A program made the position numbers and the translations under genes. A stretch of DNA of 17,384 nt from positions 1 to 17,384 of the forward strand of contig JAJQIQ010000048.1 of NCBI GenBank assembly GCA_021199135.1. The letters run 5' to 3'. The notes below the pieces were generated by a model. The model searched no databases. It worked only from the letters and a program-made list of their open reading frames with translations, and was not told where the DNA came from. This DNA comes from Clostridiales bacterium. Lineage in GTDB: Bacteria > Bacillota > Clostridia > Lachnospirales > Lachnospiraceae. Of this stretch, positions 5,731 to 13,997 are shown in pieces; position 1 is the first letter of the stretch, and every line of letters starts with the position of its first letter.

Positions 5731-7437
5731 TTATACGATCCTGTTTTTCCGGACGAGGTGGATGAACTCGGCGTTGCTCTTCGTGTGCGCGAACATGTTT
5801 AAAATGTTCTCGACCGCCTCGTCCGAGCGCATTCCATTCAGGGCGCGGCGCATATTGTCAACGCCCTCCTTCTCCTCCGGGTCAAGCAGCAGGTCGTCGC
5901 GGCGCGTCCCGGAGCGGGCGATGTCCACCGCCGGGAAAATGCGCTTCTCGGAAAGCTTCCGGTCGAGGATCAGCTCCATGTTGCCAGTGCCCTTGAACTC
6001 CTCGTAGACCACGTCGTCCATCTTGCTGCCGGTCTCGACCAGGGCCGTCGCCAGGATCGTGAGGCTCCCGCCCTCTCGCATGTTTCTTGCGGCTCCGAAG
6101 AACCTCTTCGGCATGTGGAGCGCCGCCGGGTCGAGTCCGCCGGAGAGCGTGCGCCCGCTCGGCTGGACCGTGAGGTTGTACGCCCTGGCTAGGCGCGTGA
6201 TGCTGTCGAGCAGGATCATCACGTCCTTGCCGTGCTCGACAAGGCGCCTGGCGCGCTCGATGACCATCTCGGAGACGCGCTTGTGGTGCTCCGCCGTCTC
6301 GTCGAAGGTGGAGTAGATGACCTCGACGTTGTCCCCGACGATGGCCTCCTTTATGTCCGTGACCTCCTCGGGGCGCTCGTCGATGAGCAGGATGATGAGG
6401 TGGATCTCCGGGTTGTTTTGCGTGACGGACTTGGCGATCTCCTTGATGAGCGTCGTCTTGCCGGCCTTCGGCTGAGAGACGATCATCCCGCGCTGCCCCT
6501 TGCCGATTGGGGAGATGATGTCCATGACGCGCATCGCGACCGACCCGCCCGGGCGCTCCATGCGGAGCCTCTCGTCCGGGAATATCGGCGTCAGGTCCTC
6601 GAAGTTCGGGCGCCTCTGCGCCTCGGAGGGATGGTAGCCGTTCACGGAAGTCACGTACAGAAGCGCCGCGAACTTCTCCCTCTCGGTCTTTATCTTCGTG
6701 TTCCCGGTGATGATGTCTCCGGATTTTAGGTTGAACCGGCGGATCTGCGACGGCGCGACATAGACGTCGTGCTCGCCCGGGAGGTAGTTCTCACAGCGGA
6801 TGAAGCCGAAGCCGTCCGACATGACCTCGAGGATGCCGCTTGCGCTCATGCCGCTGTCGAGGTCCGCAATCTCCTCCTTGACAGCCGCGGAGTCGTACTC
6901 CTCGTGGTTTTCGTATGTGCCGTCGGAGGTGATTTTCTTCGCCCTGGGCTTGGGTGCCTCGTACTCCTCGCGGGGCTGCGCCTGGCTCTCGGTGGCTGCC
7001 GCAGGCTCTATGTCCACGTTTTCCTTCTCCGGGCGGTAGGACGGGCGCGCGTAGTCCGCGTGCGGCCTCTGGTACGGCTCACGGTCCTGCCTCTGGTACG
7101 GCTCGCGGTCAGGGCGCTGATATTTCTCGCGGTATGAGTCGCCGCGCTCCTGCCTCGCTCCGTACGACGGCCTGCCGGGGCGGCCTCCGTACTGCCTGTC
7201 GGACGACGGGCGGGTCGTGGAGTAGACCGTGTGGGGCTTTTGCTGCGGCTGCTCCTGCGCCCCAGCCTCGGCCTCCTTGGCCTGCTCAGCCGCCTTCTTC
7301 TCCTCGTCCTTCTTGTCCTGCTCGAGCATACGCTCGATGAGGTCGGCCTTCTTTAGGGTGGAGATGCCTTTCATCCCCCTCGCCTTCGCGAGGTCCTTAA
7401 GCACTGCCAAAGATAAGCTCTCGTATTTTTCTCTCAT
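5731..7437 (-). CDS. rho: Transcription termination factor Rho
   Basis: Hexameric RNA helicase/ATPase that ends transcription at unstructured C-rich RNA; 568 residues, longer than the roughly 420 of E. coli Rho. Order: N-terminal SAP-like Rho_N helix bundle (1-40); a long charged and Arg/Tyr/Gln/Pro-rich disordered insert (about 41-195) with repeats of DREPYQR; the cold-shock RNA-binding domain (about 200-265, GFGFI at 209-213); and the RecA-like motor. The motor shows Walker A QPKAGKTT (322-329), Walker B VMILLDS (406-412), Q-loop LSGGLDP (431-437) and R-loop KGTGNMEL (482-489). The start at 7437 follows AAGGAG by about 9 nt; the in-frame ATG at 7488 lacks a site and precedes the family start [10 protein letters not shown]. 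rpmE follows with its own promoter. Confidence 0.98.
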
Positions 7438-7498
7438 ATATAAAAACTCCTTGTCTTTTTTAGCTAGCTCATTAAAACATGAAATCAAACTGGGGATA

Positions 7499-9658: not shown

Positions 9659-11131
9659 TTATTTTCTGAGCTCAGGATTTTCATTGAGAATATCCGCGAT
9701 AAGCTCCCTCTCGTCCATGTGGTGTTTTACGCCTTTTATCTCCTGGTAGTCCTCATGACCCTTCCCGGCAAGGACGATGATGTCGCCGTCCTGAGCGTTC
9801 TTTAGGCAAAAGCGTATCGCCTCCTTGCGGTCCGGGATCGTGACATACTCCCCGTCAGCTTTCTTCACGCCTATTAAGATGTCGTTTATTATGTCCATCG
9901 GCTCCTCGTCGCGCGGGTTGTCGGAGGTCACGACCGTGAGGTCGGCAAGGCGCGACGAGACCTCTCCCATCTCGTAGCGGCGCGACTTCGCGCGGTTGCC
10001 CCCGCAGCCGAAGAGGCAGACGAGACGCCCTGGCTCATAGACTCGCAGGGTCGCAAGGATGCTCTCGAGCGACATCGCGTTGTGCGCGTAGTCGATCATC
10101 AGCGTGTAGCGGTTGCAAATAGGAACAATCTCGATCCTGCCCTTCACCCTCACAGACAAAAGCGCGGTCTTCATAGCCTCCTCGCTGACCCCGAACTGAT
10201 GGCAGACCGATATCGCGGCGAGCGAGTTGTACACCGAGAAATCCCCCGGGACCCCGACCTGCACATAAAAATTTTCCCTGCCGCAGACATGATACCCGAC
10301 TCCCAGCGCGCCGTGCTCCTTTAAGAGCGTCACGTCCTTCGCGTAGAAATCGCAGCCTTCCCCGTAGCCGAAGGTCTGCACATCGCAGGTGTGTCCCTCG
10401 AGGATTTCTTTGAAGTGCTCGCTGTCGGCATTGAATATGCCCGTCCTGCACTGCCGAAACAGCAGGCTCTTGCAGTGGAGGTAGTCGGCAAAGTCTTTGT
10501 GCTCATTCTTGCCTATATGGTCCGGCTCGAGGTTCGTAAATACCCCGACATCGAAGACGAAGCCGCTGACGCGGTGAAGCATCAGCGCCTGCGAGGAAAC
10601 CTCCATCACGACCGCTTCCATCCCAGCGTCGGCCATCTGCCCAAACAGCTCCTGCACGTGGTAGGACTCGGGCGTCGTGTTCTCCGCTGGAATATGCTCG
10701 TCACCCACTATGGACTCTATCGTCCCGATAAGCCCGGTCTTTATCCCGGCCTCCTCGAGGATGGCGCGGACCATGTAGGCCGTGGTCGTCTTGCCCTTCG
10801 TGCCGGTGATCCCGATGGTCTTAAGTTTTTTTGCGGGATGGCCGAAGTACGCCGCCGAGAGCTCCGCGAGCGCGAGCCGGGCATCGATGACCTTTATGTA
10901 TGTGACGTCCGGCAGCATCTCCACGTCGTGCTCGATCACGATTGCCCTCGCGCCCTGCCTCACCACGTCCGGGATGAAGTCGTGCGCATCCCTGACCGTC
11001 CCGGCGATGCAGACGAAGAGGGACCCCGCCTGCGCCTTCCTCGAGTCGTAGACGAGCGTCTCTATCTCCATCTCGAGATTCCCGGCAACCACCTCATATT
11101 CCATCCCGTCGAGCAAATCCGCAAGCCTCAT
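9659..11131 (-). CDS. murE: UDP-MurNAc-tripeptide synthetase MurE (meso-DAP adding)
   Basis: Cytoplasmic ATP-dependent ligase that adds the third residue of the peptidoglycan stem peptide; 490 residues. The ATP loop is GITGTKGKTTT (107-117). NTTPESYHVQ (151-160) and the HCKSLLF lysine (221), the likely carbamylated residue, follow. DNPR at 404-407 is the signature for meso-diaminopimelate over lysine, and dapF upstream supports this. Some segments differ from E. coli-type MurE: DYAHNAMSLE (347-356) where DYAHTPDSLE-like is usual, and GCGGNRAKSRRYEM (375-388). A GGGGAGGGG ribosome binding site precedes the ATG. The 96-bp gap after dapF contains a hairpin. Confidence 0.95.
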   Translation of the reverse strand: MRLADLLDGMEYEVVAGNLEMEIETLVYDSRKAQAGSLFVCIAGTVRDAHDFIPDVVRQGARAIVIEHDVEMLPDVTYIKVIDARLALAELSAAYFGHPAKKLKTIGITGTKGKTTTAYMVRAILEEAGIKTGLIGTIESIVGDEHIPAENTTPESYHVQELFGQMADAGMEAVVMEVSSQALMLHRVSGFVFDVGVFTNLEPDHIGKNEHKDFADYLHCKSLLFRQCRTGIFNADSEHFKEILEGHTCDVQTFGYGEGCDFYAKDVTLLKEHGALGVGYHVCGRENFYVQVGVPGDFSVYNSLAAISVCHQFGVSEEAMKTALLSVRVKGRIEIVPICNRYTLMIDYAHNAMSLESILATLRVYEPGRLVCLFGCGGNRAKSRRYEMGEVSSRLADLTVVTSDNPRDEEPMDIINDILIGVKKADGEYVTIPDRKEAIRFCLKNAQDGDIIVLAGKGHEDYQEIKGVKHHMDERELIADILNENPELRK

Positions 11132-11227: not shown

Positions 11228-12061
11228 TTATAATTTCCACTCTCCCGTGAATACCTCCGTTGCCGGTCCCGTCATGAATAGATGGTTGCTCTCCGGCTCG
11301 TAGGCGATCGTGAGGTTCCCGCCGCGCAGGTGCACGAGCACCTGGTTCTCGGTCTTGCCGTTCAAGATGCAGGCCATCACCGCCGCACAGGCACCGGTAC
11401 CGCAGGCCCAGGTCTCTCCCGCGCCGCGCTCCCACACGCGCATCGAAATCTCTGACTTCGAGTGCAGCTGCACGAACTCGGTGTTCGTCCGCTTCGGGAA
11501 ACGCACATGGTGCTCAAACAGCGGGCCGATGTCGGAGAGTTCAAGCCCGTCGACGTCCTCGACGAAAACGACGGCGTGGGGGTTGCCGACGGAGACGCAG
11601 GTCATGTGCCACTCCCTCTCATCGACCGCGATCGGCTCGTCCACGACGCGCTCGCCCTCGGCCTTCACCGGAATCTCCTCCGCGGCGATTATCGGCTCCC
11701 CCATGTCCACCTTGACCGAGGTCACCTTGCCGTCCTCAAGGAAGAGCTGAAGCGGCTTTATCCCCGCCCCGGTCTCGACTGTGATCTGGGTCTTGTCCGT
11801 CATTCCCCGCTCATAGACGTACTTCGCGACACAGCGGATCCCATTGCCGCACATCTCGGCCTCGGAGCCGTCCGCATTGTATATCCTCATCCGAAAGTCC
11901 GCTTTATCCGACGGCCCTATCGTTATGAGCCCGTCCGAGCCCACTCCGAAGTGCCTGTCGCTCACTGCGACGGAAAGCGCAGACGCATCGCTGACATTCT
12001 CCTCGAAGAGGTTCACGTATACATAGTCGTTTCCACAGCCGTGCATTTTCGTAAATTTCAT
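11228..12061 (-). CDS. dapF: Diaminopimelate epimerase DapF
   Basis: Converts LL-diaminopimelate to the meso form, for lysine synthesis and the peptidoglycan cross-link, without a cofactor. 277 residues, normal length. The family start MKFTKMHGCGNDYV is followed by the two active-site cysteines: C71 in EMCGNGIRC (69-77) and C220 in GETWACGTGACA (215-226), where Trp replaces the more common Leu or Gln. GSDGLI (41-46) and GNPHAV (159-164) are also present. It starts 12 bp after the upstream gene with a GAGGGG ribosome binding site, and murE follows, so DAP synthesis and use appear to be one transcription unit. Confidence 0.98.
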   Translation of the reverse strand: MKFTKMHGCGNDYVYVNLFEENVSDASALSVAVSDRHFGVGSDGLITIGPSDKADFRMRIYNADGSEAEMCGNGIRCVAKYVYERGMTDKTQITVETGAGIKPLQLFLEDGKVTSVKVDMGEPIIAAEEIPVKAEGERVVDEPIAVDEREWHMTCVSVGNPHAVVFVEDVDGLELSDIGPLFEHHVRFPKRTNTEFVQLHSKSEISMRVWERGAGETWACGTGACAAVMACILNGKTENQVLVHLRGGNLTIAYEPESNHLFMTGPATEVFTGEWKL

Positions 12062-12073
12062 TTTGATTTCCCC

Positions 12074-13798
12074 TCAGCCCATTATCCACATCCAGAGGAT
12101 GGCCAACGCCGCTATGATGCCTATCAGGTCGAGCGCCGCCACGATCACCGCCGCCATCGCAAAAGTCTTCGCCTGGCTTGCGTGTTTTCCGGCCTCGGTC
12201 ACCATGTTCAGCTGAGCCTCAAGGCTGCTCAGCAGGTTCTGTATGTTGCGGTAGCACATGACGGTCTCGGTGTGCACCTTCTCGGAGAGCTCGCCCTTTG
12301 CCATCACCAGCTGTTCCTGGATCTGCACCAGGCTCTCCTTCATCTCCTTGGCCTTCTCGTCGGTGAGCTTGCCGTTCTCGCCGATTTCGCCGCGAACCGC
12401 GGACTCGATCTCGTCCATCTTCGCGCCGACTCTCTCGATCATGGCGTCAATCTGCCTGTTGTCGCCGAGCGTCCTCTTGATCTCGGACTCGATGTCGTCC
12501 ATCTTGACGCCGACTTTCTCGATCATGACGTCCAGCTGCCGCTCGACGCCCGCGCTGATCTTGTCCGCCTGCTCCTGCTTTTCGCGGAGCTCGTCGTCCA
12601 GCGCGCTGACCTGCTCCTGTCTCGTGCGGAGCGTATCGTCGAGGACATTGACCTGTTCCTGGCGCTCGTCGACCATGGACTGCATCTCCTGCGCCTTGGT
12701 CTCACGCGTGTCGAGCATCCTCTGAAGCTGCATCGCGCGCGCCCTGAATTCATCTATCTGCCTTATGAGGGCATCGTCCTCATCCAATGCCTGGCTCAAA
12801 CTGTCGTCGCTGTCATAGCTGCTGTCATAGTTGCTGCCGTAGCCGCCGCTGTAGCTGCTGCCGGCATAGCTCTCCTCCTGCTGCATGCCGTAGCTGCCGC
12901 CATAGCCGCCGTAGTTCTCTTCCGGCTCCGTGCCGTAGTTTTCCTCCTCCTGCTGCATGCCATAGTCGCTGCCATAGGCGCCGTAACTCTCCTCCTGCTG
13001 CATGACAAGGCTGTCTCCTAGCGGCGCTTGCTCCGCACTGTAGGATTCCTGTGCGGTGGGCTCTGCATATGGCTCCATGACCGGTTCTGTGTACGTCTCC
13101 TGCGCAATGGGTTCTTCATAAGCCCCTGCGCCGTACGGCTCCCCATAGGCTTCCGTGCCGTATGTCTCCTGCGGCACATCATTCATGACGAGGGGCTCTA
13201 TCGTCGGCTCCTGGGCGGGTTCTGCGCCATACATTTCTGTGACGGGCTGCTCCGTGATGGGCTCAGTCCCGTATGTCTCCTGCGCCGCGACCGGCTCAGT
13301 CCCGTACATTCCCGTGACGGGCTGCTCCGCAACGGGCTCCGCGCTGTAGGTCTCCTGCGCCGCGATCGGCTCAGTCCCGTACATTCCCGTGACGGGCTGT
13401 TCCGTGATGGGCTCAGTCCCGTATGTCTCCGGTGCCTGAATGTTCATGACGAGCGGTTCTATGGTGGGTTCGGGCTCGGGCAAAATCTCCGCATCCGTAC
13501 GTCTCCACGGCGGCACGACATCCCCCTCCTGCTGCGCCGTGGTGGCCTCCGCAACGGGTTCCGCGCTTTGCGACGTCTGCGCCGTGGCGGCCTCCGCGGA
13601 CTGATCGCCGCTGTGCATCGCCTGCGCCGCAGCGACCTCCTCAGGGGTCCACGTGCTGTACGACGCCTGCTCTGGGGCAGCTTTCGGAATATTCGTTGTC
13701 TGCTTTACGTCGGAAGCCCTCTTCTCCTCAAGCCTCCGCTTTTCGTATTCATCGTCGTATTCCTTCGTCTGCCTCATGAAAATATCTTCATAATCCAT
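12074..13798 (-). CDS. Uncharacterised tail-anchored protein with repeats, prion-like stretch and coiled coil
   Basis: I do not recognise a named family. 574 residues from the ATG at 13798, which follows AAAGGAAAA; the frame opens further to 13861 without a better site. Order: charged start MDYEDIFMRQTKEYDDEY; Ala/Gln/Glu-rich disordered region (30-110); three tandem 25-residue units of the form YGTEPITEQPVTGMYGTEP (126-199), bracketed by two copies of PTIEPLVMN (111-119, 198-206); a Tyr/Gly/Gln/Ser/Glu-rich stretch with three MQQEE (266-330); a long heptad-type coiled coil (340-530) with a 28-residue internal repeat (IEKVGVKMDDIESE and IERVGAKMDEIESA); and one hydrophobic C-terminal segment (546-573). 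No signal peptide, so the bulk should face the cytosol from a C-terminal membrane anchor. Own promoter; dapF follows at 12 bp. Confidence 0.85.
   Translation of the reverse strand: MDYEDIFMRQTKEYDDEYEKRRLEEKRASDVKQTTNIPKAAPEQASYSTWTPEEVAAAQAMHSGDQSAEAATAQTSQSAEPVAEATTAQQEGDVVPPWRRTDAEILPEPEPTIEPLVMNIQAPETYGTEPITEQPVTGMYGTEPIAAQETYSAEPVAEQPVTGMYGTEPVAAQETYGTEPITEQPVTEMYGAEPAQEPTIEPLVMNDVPQETYGTEAYGEPYGAGAYEEPIAQETYTEPVMEPYAEPTAQESYSAEQAPLGDSLVMQQEESYGAYGSDYGMQQEEENYGTEPEENYGGYGGSYGMQQEESYAGSSYSGGYGSNYDSSYDSDDSLSQALDEDDALIRQIDEFRARAMQLQRMLDTRETKAQEMQSMVDERQEQVNVLDDTLRTRQEQVSALDDELREKQEQADKISAGVERQLDVMIEKVGVKMDDIESEIKRTLGDNRQIDAMIERVGAKMDEIESAVRGEIGENGKLTDEKAKEMKESLVQIQEQLVMAKGELSEKVHTETVMCYRNIQNLLSSLEAQLNMVTEAGKHASQAKTFAMAAVIVAALDLIGIIAALAILWMWIMG
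12809..13003 (-). repeat. Low-complexity coding segment (Tyr/Gly/Gln/Ser-rich)
   Basis: Codes residues 266-330 of the 574-residue protein. MQQEE occurs at 266, 281 and 305, interleaved with YGAYGSDYG-like and SSYSGGYGSNY-like runs. Tyrosine spaced by Gly and Ser, with Gln, is the composition of prion-like or phase-separating segments. Confidence 0.8.
13202..13423 (-). repeat. Tandem 75-bp coding repeat (three units)
   Basis: GACGGGCTG recurs at 13241, 13316 and 13391 on the plus strand, exactly 75 bp apart. Each unit codes about 25 residues, [YGTEP or YSAEP][ITEQP or VAEQP]VTGMYGTEP..AQET. The third unit is 24 residues and diverged. The period is a multiple of three, so changes in copy number keep the frame. 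Confidence 0.9.
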
Positions 13799-13940: not shown

Positions 13941-13973
13941 AAAAAAGGAGCCGTGGGTCTTGCCCACAGCTCC
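13941..13973 (-). terminator. Intrinsic terminator of nifJ
   Basis: On the minus strand GGAGCTGTGGG (13973-13963), a 5-nt loop, and CCCACGGCTCC (13957-13947) form an 11-bp stem with one G-U pair. TTTTTT (13946-13941) follows. It lies 25 bp past the nifJ stop. Confidence 0.95.
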
Positions 13974-13997
13974 CTTGAAAATTTATTTTGCCCTGTT

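Follow-up and report, generated by a model that had tools for sequence, protein, structure and literature searches.

The described bacterial proteins closest in layout to the one considered here, which is encoded in a stretch of 17,384 nucleotides of Clostridiales DNA analysed as a whole (hereafter the window), are the DUF883 members ElaB and YqjD of E. coli, likewise made of a cytoplasmic part and a single C-terminal anchor, with no signal sequence. The anchor of ElaB and YqjD is described as glycine-rich and as followed by a positive patch ending in di-arginine (PMC5525287). By comparison, the family of the window protein has a longer core and an invariant motif of its own, is seen in Lachnospiraceae only, and carries no positive patch after the anchor; beyond the best anchor window, 73 of 96 tails have no net charge, 14 carry +1, one carries +2 and eight are negative. 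The DUF883 profile matched none of the eight family proteins scanned and is absent among the best 25 of the 36 families listed for the cores. A stress-related tail anchor of the YqjD/ElaB kind, which would dock, for instance, ribosomes or another cytoplasmic complex at the membrane, would agree with the shared layout (a helical cytoplasmic part with a C-terminal anchor and little tail behind it) and with the alarmone synthetase gene adjoining the family members called type B below. Nevertheless, in view of the missing DUF883 match in these scans and of the missing positive patch, such a role appears very improbable.

The Firmicutes septation regulator EzrA is also a long membrane-tethered coiled coil, but its membrane segment is N-terminal, whereas the only membrane segment of the window protein is C-terminal; the EzrA profile did not match the window protein at E 1 or better, and its score for a relative (L037) was 15.3 bits, the cut-off being 39.6. 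SMC/Rad50-type coiled coils resemble the window protein in heptad composition and through a weak NCBIfam match, SMC scoring 23.6 bits against a cut-off of 729.4 over the coiled-coil part only, with no match to the ATPase head. Besides, the apolipoprotein A1/A4/E repeats (PF01442) match 9 of 32 cores (best E 5.4e-11) and, among solved structures, 49 sequences were retrieved at E up to 1, apolipoproteins leading (best E 7.3e-6). The window family is, however, tail-anchored and bacterial, one relative reaches 17.9 bits where the curated cut-off is 90, and the likeness was put down to amphipathic repeats or helices. An anti-phage system was also discarded, the matches of the window protein and two relatives being weak (best E 9.1e-6, L037).

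No curated family in Pfam or NCBIfam is matched by the window protein above its cut-off, enzyme families included, in line with the original prediction that it holds no enzyme motif; the curated cut-offs shown for its relatives were not reached either. In the open-licence literature, no description of this tail-anchored family was found, the papers retrieved concerning other proteins. The proposal that the gene encodes an undescribed component is thereby borne out for the curated databases and this literature. Taken together, the anchor, the helical core, the motif, the linker and the two gene neighbourhoods presented below give good support to an undescribed family in Lachnospiraceae whose members are rod-like helical proteins, anchored by the C-terminal tail and mostly encoded in single copy.

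Architecture of the protein

The gene lies on the minus strand, with its ATG at 13798 and its stop at 12074-12076, a plus-strand reading of 12074-13798 having been dropped because of an internal stop. The 574-residue open reading frame contains all four unlike parts predicted earlier, namely repeats, a Tyr/Gly/Gln/Ser-rich segment, a heptad stretch and a C-terminal hydrophobic segment:

12074..13798, minus strand: gene of the tail-anchored coiled-coil protein, 574 aa (open reading frame and family members)
Residues 1-270 of the window protein: acidic linker bearing the repeats
13532..13640, minus strand: 45-nt tandem repeat, 2.4 copies, in the N-terminal linker (Tandem Repeats Finder)
13230..13430, minus strand: 75-nt (25-residue) tandem repeat, 2.7 copies, 84% match, in the linker (Tandem Repeats Finder)
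12788..12988, minus strand: Tyr/Gly/Gln/Ser-rich low-complexity segment, residues 271-337 (composition; no conservation in relatives)
12164..12787, minus strand: conserved helical core, residues 338-545, with QIDEFR at 347-352 (search of relatives and alignment)
12239..12289, minus strand: signature LSEKVHTETVMCYRNIQ, residues 504-520, containing HxExVxxYRNxQ (tail alignments)
12083..12163, minus strand: C-terminal membrane segment, about residues 546-572 (hydropathy)

No RNA element reached its gathering score in the window.

Across residues 338-540, hydrophobic residues recur with a period of 3.56, which none of 500 shuffles reached. When 60 relatives were searched, the core was found in 35 of the 36 same-genus genomes, window included, and the remaining 24 gave one borderline match (G039, E 9e-4). 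The invariant residues of 32 aligned cores, again including that of the window, are located in the QIDEFR stretch and in H.E.V...RN; the QIDEFR-type core start, a feature of the type A members defined below, is present in the window, and its I, R, A and L columns are invariant over the 32 rows. At window residues 509-520 stands HxExVxxYRNxQ, whose His precedes the membrane segment by 29-52 residues and whose residues are invariant although the tails share just 19-42% identity with that of the window. The tail profile A5 matches the window at E 6.8e-23, a match that is partly by construction since the window is a row of A5.

Regarding the anchor, the best 19-residue Kyte-Doolittle window scores 2.79 at residues 550-568 and none starting before residue 521 exceeds 1.0, hence a single C-terminal segment. 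Among 96 tails, a median of six residues lies beyond the best 19-residue window, and 80 tails have a positive net charge ahead of the membrane segment, as against 13 with zero and three with a negative charge. Since a positively charged flank marks the cytoplasmic side according to the positive-inside rule, the N-terminus is predicted to reside in the cytoplasm, and both hydropathy and charge bias fit the tail-anchored class, with putative C-terminal insertion. An N-terminal amphipathic membrane helix was considered and dropped, the hydrophobic moment being within the 5% shuffle level in 10 of 11 members.

As for the shape of the family, a 155-residue type B protein was modelled as one helix spanning residues 2-151 (pLDDT 86.5), and open reading frames range from 97 to 706 aa with a median of 287, the shortest of which may be broken. 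A structural coiled coil serving cell shape or division, EzrA- or crescentin-like, to which the neighbouring genes would be incidental, could account for this long rod as well as for the very variable length, the mostly single copy and the wide spread. The absence of any curated match above cut-off, the low EzrA score, an anchor at the other end than in EzrA and patchy detection nonetheless make this quite unlikely.

The part preceding the core is of another nature. While 14 to 311 residues stand ahead of the core motif in 32 relatives, 346 do so in the window. Residues 271-330 of the window protein consist of Y/G/Q/N/S to 72%, a share equalled by none of 228 fetched family sequences, near-duplicates included (median 30%, highest 63%); none of them equals its 20% Tyr either, the next among the top ten listed being L273 with 18%. 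This 443-aa type A member has its own Tyr/Gly/Arg/Asp-rich linker, and L159 (2481-3764) has one with tandem repeats whose unit is unlike that of the window. As the linkers of L273 and L159 differ in kind, the linker seems free to expand, which counts against a conserved condensate function. Judged by composition and length, the repeats and the Tyr-rich stretch of the window are a hypervariable linker, and the earlier idea of a condensate-forming protein is not supported, for it was drawn from this repeat-bearing, Tyr-rich part that relatives do not conserve. The low-complexity part is extreme in composition within the family, yet unconserved, and a role in phase separation is conjecture.

Elsewhere in the window, Tyr, Gln, Arg and Pro abound in an N-terminal insert of Rho (5731-7488, minus strand), at about residues 76-170, whose best 60-residue window has 43% Y/G/Q/N/S. 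Low-complexity inserts of this sort are tied to phase separation in other gut bacteria.

Two alternative gene neighbourhoods

The surroundings of the window gene comprise the following features:

13944..13976, minus strand: intrinsic-terminator-like hairpin, 14 pairs and a T run, behind the upstream pyruvate:ferredoxin oxidoreductase gene
12062..12073, minus strand: 12-nt junction to dapF, the place of the CBS-pyrophosphatase gene in most relatives (locus comparison)
11228..12061, minus strand: dapF (profile match)
9659..11131, minus strand: murE (profile match)

With 12 nt between the genes and no terminator-like site at 12062-12073, the predicted co-transcription with dapF and murE is plausible in the window genome. 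Over the whole region, terminator-like sites are no commoner than in shuffles (3 vs 3.6), and the scan gave no promoter-like site on the minus strand.

In the loci designated type A, the usual next gene is a different one. In a named set of 80 loci kept of 157 matched (mostly MAGs, with some near-duplicates, and some loci being the same contigs as G-labelled genomes), 71 of the 79 with downstream sequence have a CBS-pyrophosphatase gene as the following one on the same strand. This pyrophosphatase is of family II, with DHH, DHHA2, CBS and DRTGG domains in all four scanned, and in a second set the gap to its matched part is 18-195 nt in 27 loci. Eight loci are exceptions (L095, L105, L108, L133, L136, L142, L143 and L159): in L095, L105 and L108, dapF comes next, with murE behind it in the latter two (the stretch of L095 ends there), in L142 the pyrophosphatase is 3.3 kb away, and in L143 just about 490 nt of contig are left downstream. 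More widely, dapF (with murE) is found downstream within 6.5 kb in 32 of 57 type A loci with enough sequence, and 34 of 53 have the pyruvate:ferredoxin oxidoreductase gene upstream. The window is similar to L095, L105 and L108; the pyrophosphatase is not its direct downstream neighbour, dapF following after 12 nt, and its assignment to type A is made from the tail, the core and the upstream gene. The dapF/murE link is lineage-specific. With dapF kept in 32 of the 57 loci and the pyrophosphatase next in 71 of the 79, the conserved link with dapF and murE that the original prediction presupposed holds only by half.

At one locus (L040, genome G033), the tail-anchored gene consists of two pieces and has stops close to its 3' end, and the pyrophosphatase behind it is split over two open reading frames; L125 (Roseburia inulinivorans DSM 16841) is apparently the same contig. 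These split genes reflect either draft-sequence errors or decay.

The second context, type B, was met among weak core matches. The core profile matches 26 of 295 genomes of the order, clear type A members among them, three borderline matches outside the family (E 1e-4 to 5e-4) being taken as chance coiled coils; elsewhere in Lachnospiraceae, the weak matches L075-L079 and L081 carry the tail motif. Such motif-bearing loci have, with variation, a RelA_SpoT-only synthetase gene upstream and flavin reductase, M23/LysM/G5 peptidase and murA genes downstream. More precisely, 29 of 35 type B loci have the small alarmone synthetase no more than 2.5 kb upstream, 34 of 36 have the M23 peptidase downstream and all six with room have murA downstream, while the pyrophosphatase occurs in 0 of 40. 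In type A loci of the same set, the pyrophosphatase is next in 27 of 29 and the synthetase is upstream in 0 of 25. In type A (18 of 26) and type B (27 of 40) alike, a flavin-reductase-like gene of ~190 residues occurs downstream, and it may mark an ancestral locus. The type B gap from synthetase to gene, taken to the matched part, is between 200 and 600 nt in 25 of 31 cases, so that the two are not tightly operonic. Furthermore, type A genomes hold a close synthetase homologue elsewhere (63-69% identity, five of five), which is not beside the tail-anchored or an M23 gene within the flanks examined (in G000 the contig ends there); the synthetase can therefore do without a tail-anchored neighbour. 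One type B synthetase (L178, 4261-4938, plus strand) matches the PADLOC candidate defence model PDC-S33 (E 5.5e-25), probably only via the common RelA_SpoT domain.

Compared by hhalign, the tails of types A and B match with a probability of 98.8, an E of 1.3e-16 and a score of 85.5, against a best score of 16.9 in 30 column shuffles and of 33.3 in 30 shuffles keeping the membrane part; on this profile evidence, the tails are homologous. Seventy-two of 76 loci examined have a recognised tail: 30 are type A and 41 type B, one stays unclassified and no locus is mixed. Because marker genes define the types, some of the purity seen within each follows from the definition, which does not apply to the absence of mixtures. 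The contexts cluster on a tree of 86 tails and 92 columns, in which 37 of 82 inner forks are weak, with 3 changes needed vs 28.5 when shuffled. Each of 25 genomes chosen as positives has one copy (in one case in two broken pieces), and the survey detected two separate copies in four genomes, G358, G361, G474 and G654. Both copies are B in G361 and A in G654, while G358 apparently has one of each, its B tail being identical to that of G639, a genome of another genus, which makes MAG contamination likely. The two types resemble a single gene found at either of two locations, as a rule not at both.

In this context, the original prediction of a membrane scaffold for peptidoglycan-precursor synthesis or growth, recruiting enzymes of the DapF, MurE or MurA type, draws on the 12 nt to dapF and then murE in the window, on dapF being next in L095, L105 and L108, and on the type B position ahead of the M23/LysM/G5 peptidase and murA. 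Yet dapF lies within 6.5 kb in just 32 of 57 type A loci and the nearest conserved partner is the pyrophosphatase, so such a scaffold is unlikely. A peptidoglycan connection may persist in type B through the M23 (34/36) and murA (6/6) genes; the dapF/murE link itself is local.

Spread and the pyrophosphatase in the window's lineage

Of 397 sampled Lachnospiraceae genomes, 115 give a match to the tail profile, including three with internal stops and a few weak matches, and ~110 were kept; by genus, 95 of 334 are positive uncorrected and ~90 after correction. No tail match was obtained in 231 of 319 good-quality Lachnospiraceae genomes, but the survey scored at most 13 candidates per genome, so that positive genomes may have been missed, and the occurrence is either patchy or under-detected. 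In a class-wide sample, 8 of 291 genomes match and seven of them are Lachnospiraceae, the eighth (E 6.5e-4, four stops) being taken as chance. The labels of the named type A loci are Agathobacter, Roseburia, Blautia, Lachnospiraceae or Eubacterium, except for some MAGs, two of which bear the label Clostridiales, one Muribaculaceae and one bacterium. A single-sequence protein search returned just three relatives; alignment searches returned 550 and 1367, each among 8000 scored candidates.

Within the window's genus, the DHHA2 domain was found in 31 of 36 genomes. It was found neither in G000, G006 and G024, the three with the gene directly ahead of dapF, nor in G020, whose pyrophosphatase gene runs off the contig (L141), nor in G021, where the tail-anchored gene was also not found; the window's own genome, in which DHHA2 was not found, is 74% complete. 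In the window's lineage, the missing pyrophosphatase gene leaves the tail-anchored gene adjoining dapF. No replacement candidate emerged: the family I pyrophosphatase (PF00719) was found in none of the six genomes searched, including G000, G006 and G024, and the membrane pyrophosphatase (PF03030) gave no full match in 24 same-genus genomes (G000 and G006 included, G024 outside the set), with one 33-position fragment in G021. Although G000, G006 and G024 are 71-75% complete, so that loss is not proven, the lineage of the window, L095, L105 and L108 seems from these profile searches to have lost the family II pyrophosphatase.

Possible roles of the family

Small alarmone synthetases make (p)ppGpp. 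For its part, the CBS-pyrophosphatase is described as allosterically controlled by AMP, ADP, ATP and diadenosine-polyphosphate alarmones (PMC11172384). Through this nucleotide and alarmone control, the two alternative neighbours look alike in theme, the "pyrophosphate/alarmone" heading being our own grouping and the link purely thematic.

As read from the gene neighbourhood, the function that we tentatively prefer is that of an oligomeric adaptor tethered to the membrane, with a possible tie to wall growth and to pyrophosphate/alarmone enzymes; any one named partner is less probable than the adaptor as a whole. The protein, with its N-terminus in the cytoplasm, would oligomerise as a membrane-standing coiled coil whose HxExVxxYRNxQ collar is a putative protein-binding site, and would retain at the membrane, close to wall synthesis, the CBS-pyrophosphatase (type A), the small alarmone synthetase (type B) or a common partner. 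In the window lineage, the pyrophosphatase gene would have gone from the operon and the protein been kept, now encoded directly ahead of dapF-murE. Of the earlier suggestion of a membrane-tethered scaffold near wall synthesis, the tail anchor and the coiled coil are supported, unlike the condensate basis and the conserved dapF/murE link.

Nevertheless, genes can stay neighbours without their products being physical partners, 8 of the 79 named loci and the window keep the tail-anchored gene with no pyrophosphatase beside it, the type B gaps are long, a synthetase homologue sits elsewhere in type A genomes, and the survey is patchy. The persistence and the long gaps would suit a generic membrane spacer, its neighbours being kept by slow gene-order decay with no functional tie to the pyrophosphatase or the synthetase. 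The motif, invariant despite 19-42% tail identity, and the close spacing to the pyrophosphatase argue against such a spacer, to which we give little credence. A more specific version of the adaptor, and a rather improbable one, is a membrane-standing platform placing the lineage's pyrophosphate/alarmone enzyme by wall synthesis, with the collar as the common docking site and the linker setting the reach.

For the Lachnospiraceae, which are major gut bacteria, these data reveal a mostly single-copy membrane protein in ~90 of 334 sampled genera for which no family entry or role was found. Its motif, its two alternative neighbourhoods and the lineages without one neighbour make its function directly testable and, if the platform reading were true, the protein would couple energy and starvation status to envelope growth.
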